Source: an uncultured bacterium (GTDB lineage: Bacteria > Actinomycetota > Actinomycetes > S36-B12 > CAIYMF01). Taken from it: DNA of 64,000 bases. The number at the start of each line of letters is the position of its first letter. The first letter of the stretch is position 1. A program made the translations under genes and the position numbers. The stretch lies in contig CAIYMF010000296.1 in assembly GCA_903927265.1 (NCBI GenBank), positions 1 through 64,000 of the forward strand. The letters are read 5' to 3'. This document shows, one piece after another, positions 50,783 through 54,102 of this stretch. Under the pieces are notes generated by a model. The model saw only the letters and a program-made list of their open reading frames with translations, did no database searches and was not told the DNA's origin.

Positions 50783-50867
50783 TGACTACTCCTCACTCCT
50801 TCGAGGGTATCTCGCCCTCCCTTACGCCACCTACGACCAAGGCCGTCCGAGTGACAGGGCATTTCTC

Positions 50868-50899
50868 TTGACTGATGAGCATTTATGACTAATAGTCAT
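50868..50899 (+). promoter_or_regulatory. tetR promoter with an overlapping 15-bp palindromic operator
   Basis: TTGACT (50868-50873) and TAATAG (50890-50895) are spaced by 16 bases. The perfect palindrome ATGACTA-A-TAGTCAT (50885-50899) covers the -10 region. Transcription would start at about 50902-50903, at the GTG of tetR. This layout is typical of an autorepressor site. Confidence 0.65.
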
Positions 50900-50902
50900 T
50901 TC

Positions 50903-51577
50903 GTGACCACTCCCCTCGCCTCCAAACGCGATCGCACCCGCAATGCGCTGTTGATTGCCGCCCAGCATCTCTGCCTGGAAAACCCCGGATCCCCACTCAC
51001 TGTGTCCGCGGTGACCGGCCGGGCCGACATGGCCCACGGAACCTTCTACAACCATTTCGAATCGATCGAGAATCTCCTCGACGGAATCGGACTGCTGCTG
51101 CTCGCCGAACACTCCCGCCTGATCGCCAGTGTCACGGCCGGCCTCACCGACCCTGTGTCGGTGTTTGCTTTGTCTACGCGTCAGACATTGCGACTCGTGA
51201 CAGACGGACATGGATACGGACTGATCCTCTTTGACTCCGGACTCCCCGTCGACCGCTTCCTCGGTGGCCTGCGCTATCGCATGGGCACCGACGTGCTTGA
51301 AGGACTTCGTAGCGAGCGCTTCCGCGTTCACGACGCCGAAGTGGCGATTAGCATGATCGCCGGCTCGGTGCTCGGAGTCGCTCTCGACCTGCATCGCACC
51401 ACACTTCGGCCCAGCGCGATCGAATCGGCAACTGAACGCATGCTCACATCCTTGGGAGTGAATGTGCGCACCGCAGCGCGAGTCGCACATGAGCCGTTCA
51501 CCTTCGTGCCACCACGTCCCCTTCCGCTCACTTCGCTTCCCCACACACTCTCGTCGCGTCAGGAAGGTGTGGTCTAG
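50903..51577 (+). CDS. TetR-family regulator
   Basis: A 224-residue TetR-type repressor with N-terminal HTH (LTVSAVTGRADMAHGTFYNHF) and an all-helical ligand domain. The ATG at 50885 gives six more residues but lies inside the palindromic operator and -10 region, so GTG 50903 is preferred and the message would be leaderless. The next gene starts on the last base of its stop codon, so regulator and enzymes are one operon, probably induced by the pathway substrate. Confidence 0.88.
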   Translation: MTTPLASKRDRTRNALLIAAQHLCLENPGSPLTVSAVTGRADMAHGTFYNHFESIENLLDGIGLLLLAEHSRLIASVTAGLTDPVSVFALSTRQTLRLVTDGHGYGLILFDSGLPVDRFLGGLRYRMGTDVLEGLRSERFRVHDAEVAISMIAGSVLGVALDLHRTTLRPSAIESATERMLTSLGVNVRTAARVAHEPFTFVPPRPLPLTSLPHTLSSRQEGVV

Positions 51578-52905
51578 TGGGCGCCCCCACTACTGCGCCA
51601 GGCGGTACGTATCGCCGTGGTGAGCCCGGTTACGAAGGCACCCGGCTCGCGATGATGTGGAACACCAACGTGCCCGACCGCTTTCCCGACGTCATCGTCC
51701 AGGCCAACGACGAGGCTGACGCCGTCGCGGCAGTCAAGGATGCAGCGACCAAGGGCATGCGCATCGCCGTGAAATCCGGAGGCCACAGTTGGTCGGGCAA
51801 TCACGTACGTGAGGGAGGACTTCTGCTTGATGTGTCGCGCCTTGATTCGGTGACGATTGATAAGGCTGGCATGACCGCCGTCGCTGGCGCCGGATCAGGG
51901 GGCAGTGTGGTGGCAGCGGCTCTGGGGAAGGAAGGACTGTTCTTCCCCGCCGGACATTGTCTGGGAGTTCGACTCGGCGGTTACCTGCTTCAGGGAGGCT
52001 TCGGCTGGAACGGACGCGTACTTGGACCTGCCTGCCAGAGCGTGATCGGTATCGACTACATCGACGCCGAGGGAACCGCGCGGCACTCGAGTGAGACCGA
52101 GAACCCTGACATGTTGTGGGCTGCCCGCGGTGCCGGGCCTGCCTTCTTTGGAGTCGTGCTGCGATTTCATTTGCGCCTCTACCCGAAGCCACGGTTTCTT
52201 GGGGTGACTGCCGCGAGTTACTCCATCGACCACTTCGACGAGGTGCTCAGTTGGGCACATCACATTGGTCGAGAGGTACCACCATCGGTTGATCTCAACC
52301 TGATGACATCACGCAATCCCAAGCTCATCCGCGGGCAGGGCATCGAAGTCGCCGCTCCGGTGTTCGAAGACTCGTGGTCGAAAGCGCGCAGCGCCACATC
52401 GTTCATGAGCGCTCGACCGCGCGGCGCGAAACTCGTGATTCCGTTGACCAAGGTGCCATTGTCGCGGCTCTACCACCAGGTGATGACGCATTACCCATCG
52501 AACACTCACTGGGTCTCCGACAACATGTGGACGCACGCGTCATACGAAGAACTGCGACCGGGGCTACACCGCGTCGTCGACACGATGCCGCAGCGGCCCT
52601 CACATATGTTGTGGATGAACTGGATGCCGCCCGAGTCGCGCCCCGATATGGCGTATTCAGTTGAGGACGACTACTACATCTCCCTGTACGGCGGGTGGAA
52701 CCACCCTCATGAAGCCGCAGCCACGGCGCGCTGGGCTCCCGACCGTATCGCCGAGATGAGCCACCTCTCCACCGGAAGTCAGTTGGCCGATGACCCCGGT
52801 CACCCCGCCCGCGTGATCGCCGAGCCCAACCTCGATCGCCTTGCCGGCCTACGTTCCACTCACGACCCGAGCGGACGCTTTCAACCATGGATTGGACACG
52901 CGTGA
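51577..52905 (+). CDS. BBE-like FAD-linked oxidase, probably bicovalently flavinylated
   Basis: A 442-residue flavoprotein of the berberine-bridge-enzyme/VAO type. The FAD domain has His70 in SGGHSWSG and Cys128 in AGHCLGVRLGGYLLQGGFG, the two positions that bind FAD covalently in this family. The C-terminal BBE segment ends DPSGRFQPW. Such enzymes oxidise alcohols, sugars or phenolic and alkaloid substrates with O2. The GTG start at 51577 shares a base with the tetR stop. Its end overlaps the next gene by 19 bases. Confidence 0.88.
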   Translation: MGAPTTAPGGTYRRGEPGYEGTRLAMMWNTNVPDRFPDVIVQANDEADAVAAVKDAATKGMRIAVKSGGHSWSGNHVREGGLLLDVSRLDSVTIDKAGMTAVAGAGSGGSVVAAALGKEGLFFPAGHCLGVRLGGYLLQGGFGWNGRVLGPACQSVIGIDYIDAEGTARHSSETENPDMLWAARGAGPAFFGVVLRFHLRLYPKPRFLGVTAASYSIDHFDEVLSWAHHIGREVPPSVDLNLMTSRNPKLIRGQGIEVAAPVFEDSWSKARSATSFMSARPRGAKLVIPLTKVPLSRLYHQVMTHYPSNTHWVSDNMWTHASYEELRPGLHRVVDTMPQRPSHMLWMNWMPPESRPDMAYSVEDDYYISLYGGWNHPHEAAATARWAPDRIAEMSHLSTGSQLADDPGHPARVIAEPNLDRLAGLRSTHDPSGRFQPWIGHA

Positions 52906-53738
52906 CTTTCAAGGAACGTCTCACCGCTGCCAAACCCCTCGAAGGACGTCATCTCGGCTGGACCGAAGGCGAACTTGCGTCGGCGCCGTACGCACGATTC
53001 TGGAACCCGAAGATGGCGGACATTTCGGCCGACGCCTATCGCGCCGTAGCGAACAGTCCGATGGCACACGAGTTGTTCCCGCCCATGCGCGAGGCGATCG
53101 CATCAGTGGTCGACGCTGAAGTACAGAACGGCTACACGATCACGCCCACCGGCGCGATGCATGTGAATCTGTCTACGCAGATGCCCGATGTCACTCCCGA
53201 GATGATCGACTGGTGGTTCGGCTGGCATAGCGACAGCCCTGAGCGCTACAAGATGTGGCATCCCCAGGCTCACGTGCATGCGCAGTGGCAGGAGCAACCC
53301 CCCACGGGCACCAGCGGGCGAGCACGCTACGTCGGGTACGCATCACAGGTCGATGAGTACCTCGGGAGCGGGCTCATTCGCGCACTGATTCAATTCCGCC
53401 GACCCGAGGAACTAGGCCTCGTGGATGCAGACGTCACGGCCGGAGTCGATGCCACTGCCGTGTGCGCACGTGTAGGAGTCGTTGACGTACCTGTCGACAT
53501 CGGCTATTTGGCGCACCACATTGAACGCGTGCCGGGTGGCAGTGTCATGCGGTCACGCTTCTGGATCGGACAGCCGTACATCGCTGCGCGCAATGCGAAG
53601 GTGCGGGCCGTTCTTCCGTTGGCGAAACCGCTCCTGACCCCCACCGATCTCGACGCGCGCAACATGCTGGTTCACTGCTCCCAAGAGATGACGCATCTGG
53701 CAAGTTTTCTTCCCGCCCTCTATGAGCAGGAGCACTGA
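52887..53738 (+). CDS. PhlG-like C-C bond hydrolase (DAPG hydrolase family)
   Basis: A 283-residue protein of the family of PhlG, a zinc enzyme that removes acetyl from 2,4-diacetylphloroglucinol by C-C hydrolysis. Segments WWFGWHSDSPERYKMWHPQAH and QVDEYLG match this family. Predicted ligands His125, Glu157, His263 and Glu267 (in HCSQE) reproduce the PhlG His-Glu-His-x3-Glu set at nearly the same spacing. The gene lies between a covalent flavoprotein and a DUF1330 gene. The real substrate is unknown; an acylated phenol or beta-diketone is inferred. Confidence 0.8.
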   Translation: MDWTRVTFKERLTAAKPLEGRHLGWTEGELASAPYARFWNPKMADISADAYRAVANSPMAHELFPPMREAIASVVDAEVQNGYTITPTGAMHVNLSTQMPDVTPEMIDWWFGWHSDSPERYKMWHPQAHVHAQWQEQPPTGTSGRARYVGYASQVDEYLGSGLIRALIQFRRPEELGLVDADVTAGVDATAVCARVGVVDVPVDIGYLAHHIERVPGGSVMRSRFWIGQPYIAARNAKVRAVLPLAKPLLTPTDLDARNMLVHCSQEMTHLASFLPALYEQEH

Positions 53739-53739
53739 C

Positions 53740-54102
53740 ATGGCGATCAATCCCACCGGCGCCGAACTCAAGCAATTGCTCGTCGACGATCCTGGTGGCC
53801 CGGTCGTGATGCTCAATTTGCTGCGCTTCAACGAGGGCGGGCAGGTGAAGTACGGCGAGTACTCGCGATCGGTACTTCCATTCCTTGAACGTTACGGCGC
53901 TGAGGTGGTGTATTTCGGCACCGGCTCCACGGCGCTCGTCGCTGAGTCGGGGCAAGACTGGGACGCCGTGATTCTGGTGCGTTACCCAAGTCGCGAGGCA
54001 TTCACCCGCATGGTGTCCGACCCTGAGTACCAGGCCATCACTCACCTTCGTAGCGAGTCACTCACTGAAGCCGTTCTGCAGGCAACAATTCCACTGCACT
54101 AG
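53740..54102 (+). CDS. DUF1330 protein
   Basis: A 120-residue small alpha-beta-barrel (dimeric ferredoxin-like) protein of the DUF1330 group. It has VVMLNLLRFNEGGQVKYGEY and a VILVRYPSREAFTRMVSDPEYQ segment, typical of the family. It starts at ATG 53740, with AGGAG upstream inside the end of the PhlG-like gene. It closes the tetR operon. A catalytic or ligand-binding helper role is inferred. Confidence 0.88.
   Translation: MAINPTGAELKQLLVDDPGGPVVMLNLLRFNEGGQVKYGEYSRSVLPFLERYGAEVVYFGTGSTALVAESGQDWDAVILVRYPSREAFTRMVSDPEYQAITHLRSESLTEAVLQATIPLH

Follow-up and report, generated by a model that had tools for sequence, protein, structure and literature searches.

Conserved pairing of an EncM-like flavoprotein oxidase with a PhlG-fold zinc hydrolase in freshwater Actinobacteria, Alphaproteobacteria and mycobacteria

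Contig CAIYMF010000296.1 of an uncultured actinobacterium (assembly GCA_903927265.1; source genome 3.67 Mb in 353 contigs) carries, within the 64,000-nucleotide stretch analysed here (the window), four plus-strand genes at positions 50903-54102 encoding, in order, a TetR-family regulator, a berberine bridge enzyme (BBE)-like oxidase, a zinc-dependent C-C hydrolase of the PF18089 family and a DUF1330 protein. The linkage of the oxidase and hydrolase genes, found in the same order, on the same strand and at similar spacing in 58 loci, is far beyond chance, and the distances between their sequences indicate that the two are inherited as a pair. The initial annotation, made from the sequence alone, had described four overlapping or nearly touching genes; all four open reading frames (ORFs) were found, separated by small overlaps or a 1-base gap, and its gene-by-gene assignments were right. 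The features are as follows.

50866..50902 (+): promoter/operator, with a -35-like TTGACT at 50868-50873 and a perfect 7-bp inverted repeat, ATGACTAATAGTCAT, at 50885-50899
50903..51577 (+): TetR-family regulator, GTG start; PF21306 TetR_C_40, E=1.3e-12
51577..52905 (+): BBE/EncM-like covalent flavoprotein oxidase; PF01565 FAD_binding_4, E=2.9e-24
52887..53738 (+): zinc-dependent C-C hydrolase, PhlG fold; PF18089 DAPG_hydrolase, E=3.4e-53
53740..54102 (+): DUF1330 protein, optional accessory; PF07045, E=9.9e-10

The TetR stop codon (TAG 51575-51577) overlaps the oxidase GTG start at 51577, and the oxidase stop (TGA 52903-52905) overlaps the hydrolase start region, where either ATG 52887 or GTG 52902 may be used, ATG 52887 fitting the N-termini of relatives better. 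The hydrolase stop at 53736-53738 is followed by the DUF1330 ATG at 53740. A copy of the locus with 99% identity occurs in an Actinobacteria metagenome-assembled genome (MAG) from Lake Pavin (L032).

Conservation of the oxidase-hydrolase pair

A scan of GTDB genome contigs yielded 71 loci. In linked loci the regulator, oxidase and hydrolase genes lie in that order on one strand, with a stop-to-stop spacing from oxidase to hydrolase of 782-881 bp in 58 of them. A maximum-likelihood tree built from 123 PF18089 proteins placed the oxidase-linked hydrolases in two clades, one of the window type and one mycobacterial, whilst the unlinked proteins made up the rest, including PhlG of Pseudomonas (PfPhlG) and the phloretin hydrolase of Mycobacterium abscessus (MabPH). 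An oxidase gene stands directly upstream of 58 of the 59 hydrolases on the linked side of this tree, compared with 0 of the ~60 others; six linked-clade members had appeared to be unlinked, in five cases because stop-to-stop ORFs gave misleading coordinates, whilst G528 is a true exception. The linkage trait needs few changes on the tree, with the linked hydrolases apart from PfPhlG and MabPH.

Oxidase and hydrolase distances were strongly correlated (Mantel r=0.918 over 55 pairs, exceeded in 0 of 2000 permutations), and TetR distances followed those of both enzymes (r 0.88-0.91 over 30 loci), shared ancestry of the hosts contributing to both results. Across 396 genomes of the phylum the oxidase was detected at E<=1e-70 in seven, six of which also hold the linked hydrolase. 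In the seventh the oxidase is more remote (466 bits, 36% identity), and its gene overlaps that of a fumarylacetoacetate (FAA)-family hydrolase (L139:7662-10053, G109). The surrounding aromatic-catabolic cluster also encodes a flavin monooxygenase, a glyoxalase/dioxygenase-family protein, short-chain dehydrogenases/reductases (SDRs) and another FAA hydrolase; this locus repeats the logic of an oxidase plus a C-C hydrolase with another hydrolase family.

The core of TetR, oxidase and hydrolase recurs in freshwater Actinobacteria and Alphaproteobacteria, a homologous TetR gene preceding the pair in 30 loci, whilst mycobacteria, Polyangium and a planctomycete, the last represented by a MAG, also have the pair. 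Other carriers include MAGs of freshwater Actinobacteria, among them one with the label Nanopelagicales, and of Tetrasphaera, together with Caulobacter, Polymorphobacter and Sandarakinorhabdus. The initial annotation had named absence of the set elsewhere as evidence against a functional link; for the core this does not apply, and the link between oxidase and hydrolase is real and conserved. The records of five loci (L037, L038 and L043-L045) are titled Bifidobacterium breve, but their sequences group with freshwater actinobacterial MAGs and the labels look wrong.

Regulators vary by clade, TetR in some and IclR in others, whilst the enzyme pair is constant: the mycobacterial loci have no TetR gene and instead a divergent IclR gene upstream. 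On an M. riyadhense plasmid (L143) the row reads lactone oxidase, IclR, FAD-binding oxidoreductase and a 'hypothetical protein', which is the hydrolase, and in another mycobacterial locus (L103) a fragment lying just downstream matches CYP144. PF18089 was detected in 85 of 198 genomes of the genus fitting Mycobacterium; since only 2 of 17 genomes of the window's own family hold it, the distribution is patchy, as expected for a horizontally moving cassette. A role for the module as a plasmid element was rejected, as a search of plasmids found only one close carrier, that of M. riyadhense.

Active sites of the two enzymes

EncM is the best match of the oxidase both by sequence (E=2.7e-32) and by predicted fold (template modelling (TM) score 0.83; model confidence, pLDDT, 85), and its nearest relatives are EncM and the BagK/FevA1 family. 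The protein scores 85.8 bits against PF01565 FAD_binding_4, and in the alignment H70 is the 8-alpha flavin-linking His and C128 occupies the second BBE attachment position, features that identify a BBE-like covalent flavoprotein of the vanillyl-alcohol oxidase/p-cresol methylhydroxylase (VAO/PCMH) type and bear out the 'probably bicovalent' oxidase of the initial annotation. C128 is kept in most relatives, with Ala replacing it in some of those from Alphaproteobacteria. In two actinobacterial oxidases (L041 and L069) position 70 is an Arg, so that the flavin-linking His is missing from an otherwise intact motif, and their flavin is perhaps non-covalent or Cys-only. The oxidase shares the VAO/PCMH fold and bicovalent His/Cys FAD attachment with plant and fungal berberine-bridge-like oxidases, but differs from them in being bacterial, in its operon with a C-C hydrolase and in the C-terminal BBE domain PF08031, for which no match was found at E<=1; the predicted fold still covers nearly all of EncM. 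The second-cassette oxidase gene of a sister MAG (L035:8552-9998; see below) is split over two frames, by a frameshift or an assembly error, and that of L043 is split too.

EncM (3w8w, 4xlo), a flavin-N5-oxide oxygenase of enterocin biosynthesis that acts on beta-dicarbonyl chains, shares the flavin-linking His with the oxidase and lacks the extra Cys128 of most members of the present family, which has no biosynthetic cluster. EncM T139 is replaced by V131 in all relatives aligned, and EncM V135, beside the flavin, by the invariant H127, which may be catalytic. A T139V exchange in EncM gives oxidase activity, which a review links to a bound diketone oxidised to a triketone (PMC7662398). V131 together with H127 thus points to a plain O2-using oxidase, maybe acting on beta-dicarbonyl-like compounds and likely passing its electrons to O2; flavin-N5-oxide oxygenation of the EncM type is disfavoured by V131 in place of T139.

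The hydrolase scored 180.9 bits against PF18089 (cut-off 22.7), and its AlphaFold2 model (pLDDT 93) is closest in the PDB to phloretin hydrolase (5xey, TM 0.79) and PhlG (3hwp, TM 0.76). The zinc ligands of PhlG, which we take to be H129, E160, H270 and E274 (3hwp), align with H124, E152, H258 and E262 of the hydrolase (numbered from 52902), all invariant in the linked set, as is H205; the Pfam match and all four ligands together assign it to the PF18089 zinc C-C hydrolase fold, and the ligand match to PhlG claimed by the initial annotation stands. Of the residues that presumably position the substrate in PhlG (Y121, N132 and Y229; 3hwp), Y121 is kept as Y116, whilst N132 is replaced by A127 (Ile in MabPH) and Y229, a Tyr in both PhlG and MabPH, by F220, an invariant Phe across the oxidase-linked hydrolases. 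The catalytic centre is thus retained and the pocket altered, and with two of the three positioning residues changed the substrate is likely to be other than 2,4-diacetylphloroglucinol (DAPG) or phloretin. Against the PhlG equivalog model NF047887 the protein reached 102.1 bits, far below the cut-off of 600, and the acylphloroglucinol substrate first envisaged is not borne out by either the score or the two replacements. To our knowledge only a handful of PF18089 proteins have been characterised, each acting on acylphloroglucinols without a partner enzyme, and C-C bonds are rarely cleaved by hydrolysis.

In other members of the phylum (L114:8775-10822, G015; also L025 and L026) a full PF18089 gene stands in tandem with one for a short (~200 aa), very divergent PF18089-like protein; no oxidase was found at these three loci.

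Regulation and the DUF1330 gene

The regulator exceeds the cut-off of PF21306 and, with 22.7 bits, falls just under that of the N-terminal helix-turn-helix (HTH) family PF00440 (24); on its HTH and C-terminal ligand domain, the former sub-threshold, we judged it to belong to the TetR family. Its ORF is open from ATG 50885, the first in-frame ATG, which falls within a palindrome with the core TGAC-N5-GTCA (50886-50898) directly ahead of the GTG at 50903. In an alignment with the promoter of a Caulobacter MAG (L066), 24 of 40 bases are identical in register and the start codons (GTG 50903 and ATG, respectively) are equidistant from the palindrome. Since ATG 50885 lies inside the palindrome and the promoters align in this way, the start is placed at 50903, in agreement with the initial annotation, and the mRNA of the operon is probably leaderless.

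The same core, a predicted palindromic operator at the TetR gene's own promoter, lies just 5' of the TetR gene in most TetR-type loci whose upstream region is complete, in both Actinobacteria and Alphaproteobacteria, overlapping a TTGACA-like -35 element and sometimes doubled 17 bases apart. It totals 34 sites in 1.3 Mb over all loci (~0.009 per 350 bases). The single copy in the window (50886) compares with 1.96 expected by shuffling, a number unremarkable by itself, and the significance of the site stems from its position and conservation rather than its copy number. A stricter operator pattern had no match over the whole source genome, the window's own site deviating from that pattern.

The source genome holds a second complete TetR-oxidase-hydrolase-DUF1330 cassette (G000:C101:14.6-17.8 kb; L110:7604-10797), whose hydrolase is 73% identical and which also has the TGAC-N5-GTCA core; a convergent gene for a cupin protein and then a GDSL esterase gene come after it. 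Two more sites, 21 bases apart (L110:5322-5355 and L035:5202-5235), lie 5' of a gene for a YHYH-domain protein near this cassette, possibly a second TetR target.

The DUF1330 protein matches PF07045 with 39.1 bits (cut-off 23) and RPA0582 (PDB 3dca) at E=1.3e-12. A DUF1330 gene occurs in ~8 of ~31 TetR-type loci, all of freshwater Actinobacteria; it is directly downstream of the pair only in L032, L033, L037, L038, L039, L042 and L110, and is sited elsewhere in L041, L066 and L068. Of the four-gene set of the initial annotation the conserved part is the TetR-oxidase-hydrolase core, whilst the whole set as a unit is rejected, DUF1330 being present in a minority of loci or at other positions. 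In the Caulobacter MAGs L066 and L068 (5068-5712 and 6252-7919) a longer protein related to the DUF1330 profile (~214 aa) is encoded upstream of the cassette, joined in L066 by a sulfatase; the sulfatase might point to sulfated phenolics as a substrate source.

Proposed chemistry and the mycobacterial copies

The flanks of the cassette differ in most loci. Recurrent catabolic neighbours are SDRs (8 loci), aldehyde dehydrogenase and glutathione S-transferase (GST)-like proteins, and an FAA hydrolase gene is directly downstream in L058, L060 and L064. The row in L040 comprises the oxidase, hydrolase, SDR, a 3-hydroxyacyl-CoA-dehydrogenase-like protein (3HCDH), a cyclase, a cupin and a beta-keto acid cleavage enzyme (BKACE), and its SDR-3HCDH part is shared by L037 and L042; such genes would suit a 3-hydroxy or 3-oxo carboxylic acid of the kind that retro-Claisen hydrolysis of a polyketone would release. 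The SDR, 3HCDH-like, BKACE and FAA hydrolase neighbours in some loci favour degradation over biosynthesis, and no polyketide synthase (PKS) or nonribosomal peptide synthetase (NRPS) genes were found among the neighbours scanned.

On the basis of the enzyme families and their tight linkage we lean, by a little over an even chance, towards an inducible module that oxidises and then hydrolyses (retro-Claisen-type) a beta-dicarbonyl or acyl-phenol compound for catabolism or detoxification. A TetR dimer on TGAC-N5-GTCA would cover the promoter and block the operon until the substrate or a metabolite released it. The oxidase would take two electrons from the substrate to O2, giving H2O2, and generate a keto group from a hydroxyl or an activated C-H adjacent to a carbonyl, yielding a beta-dicarbonyl (or tricarbonyl); zinc-bound water in the hydrolase would then attack one carbonyl, and a retro-Claisen C-C break would give a carboxylic acid and a ketone or phenol. 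The products would enter general catabolism via SDR, 3-hydroxyacyl dehydrogenase-like, BKACE or FAA hydrolase enzymes where these are adjacent. Such a module would serve aerobic bacteria of freshwater and soil in degrading or detoxifying a polyketide-like or acyl-phenol compound. Oxidised polyvinyl alcohol hydrolase systems follow the same logic with unrelated enzyme families, a beta-hydroxy compound becoming a beta-diketone before C-C hydrolysis. That the oxidase acts first is something we infer.

Several points weigh against this proposal. Most loci are without further shared pathway genes; a mycobacterial linked-clade hydrolase (G528, L140) lacks an oxidase gene over the 12 kb read; the oxidases of L041 and L069, without the flavin-linking His, still adjoin a hydrolase; and the deepest splits of the PF18089 tree are on long branches, which makes it uncertain that the pairing arose only once.

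A plausible though less favoured alternative, compatible with the same chemistry, is that the cassette serves self-protection rather than growth, inactivating an antimicrobial compound, polyketide or phenolic, made by competitors, algae or plants, with the products left unused. The stand-alone, TetR-controlled cassette with changing flanks, its patchy occurrence (2 of 17 family genomes; a plasmid copy in M. riyadhense) and the lack of a full pathway in most loci are in keeping with this, but catabolic genes directly follow or adjoin it in L040, L037 and L042. Less probable again is a reverse order, in which the hydrolase deacylates an acyl-phenol and the oxidase then acts on the phenol or alcohol product. 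Deacylation of acyl-phenols is what PhlG and phloretin hydrolase catalyse, all characterised PF18089 members we know of act directly on acylphloroglucinols, and some BBE-like enzymes oxidise phenols, as this oxidase could too; however, the phloroglucinol-positioning Y229 and N132 are F220 and A127 here, and PhlG and MabPH (5xe5/5xey) belong to the unlinked part of the tree.

That the hydrolase is an ordinary PhlG, genuinely specific for DAPG or phloretin and with the oxidase as an accessory, is highly improbable: the Pfam family, fold, all zinc ligands and the Y121 equivalent are shared with PhlG of Pseudomonas fluorescens and with MabPH, but the score of 102 bits against 600, an identity of ~27% in the structural alignment, the separate position in the tree and the changed substrate residues argue against such an identity. 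Least credible of all is natural-product tailoring by an EncM/BagK-like oxygenase with a retro-Claisen editing hydrolase, to which the oxidase's best relatives would point, given the absence of PKS and NRPS genes from the scanned neighbourhoods and V131 at the position of EncM T139.

In M. tuberculosis, Rv1773c is annotated as a regulator (PMC2905415, PMC9685343), Rv1774 as an FAD oxidoreductase resembling cytokinin dehydrogenase (PMC8157059, PMC11925245) and Rv1775 as a PhlG-like C-C hydrolase of unknown substrate (PMC8562490), and the papers found treat the three singly and without a substrate (PMC2905415, PMC8157059, PMC11925245, PMC8562490). Compared by gene numbers rather than by sequence, their order is that of the IclR, oxidase and hydrolase genes in L103-L107 and L143, and gene numbers and neighbours indirectly indicate that the mycobacterial copies correspond to Rv1773c-Rv1774-Rv1775. 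Open-licence papers on the oxidase-PhlG combination, on PF18089 and on Rv1774 together with Rv1775 contained nothing describing the pair as a unit, which appears undescribed in the literature searchable here.

We propose tentatively, and with less than even confidence, an oxidative retro-Claisen pathway in which a bicovalent EncM-like oxidase makes a beta-polycarbonyl and a PhlG-fold zinc hydrolase cuts it, as one module spread in freshwater Actinobacteria, Proteobacteria, myxobacteria and mycobacteria that would also explain Rv1774-Rv1775. The conserved oxidase partner predicts an oxidative route for the PF18089 fold, testable as a purified enzyme pair, and offers a joint hypothesis for M. 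tuberculosis Rv1774 and Rv1775, two proteins hitherto discussed separately in the literature searched.

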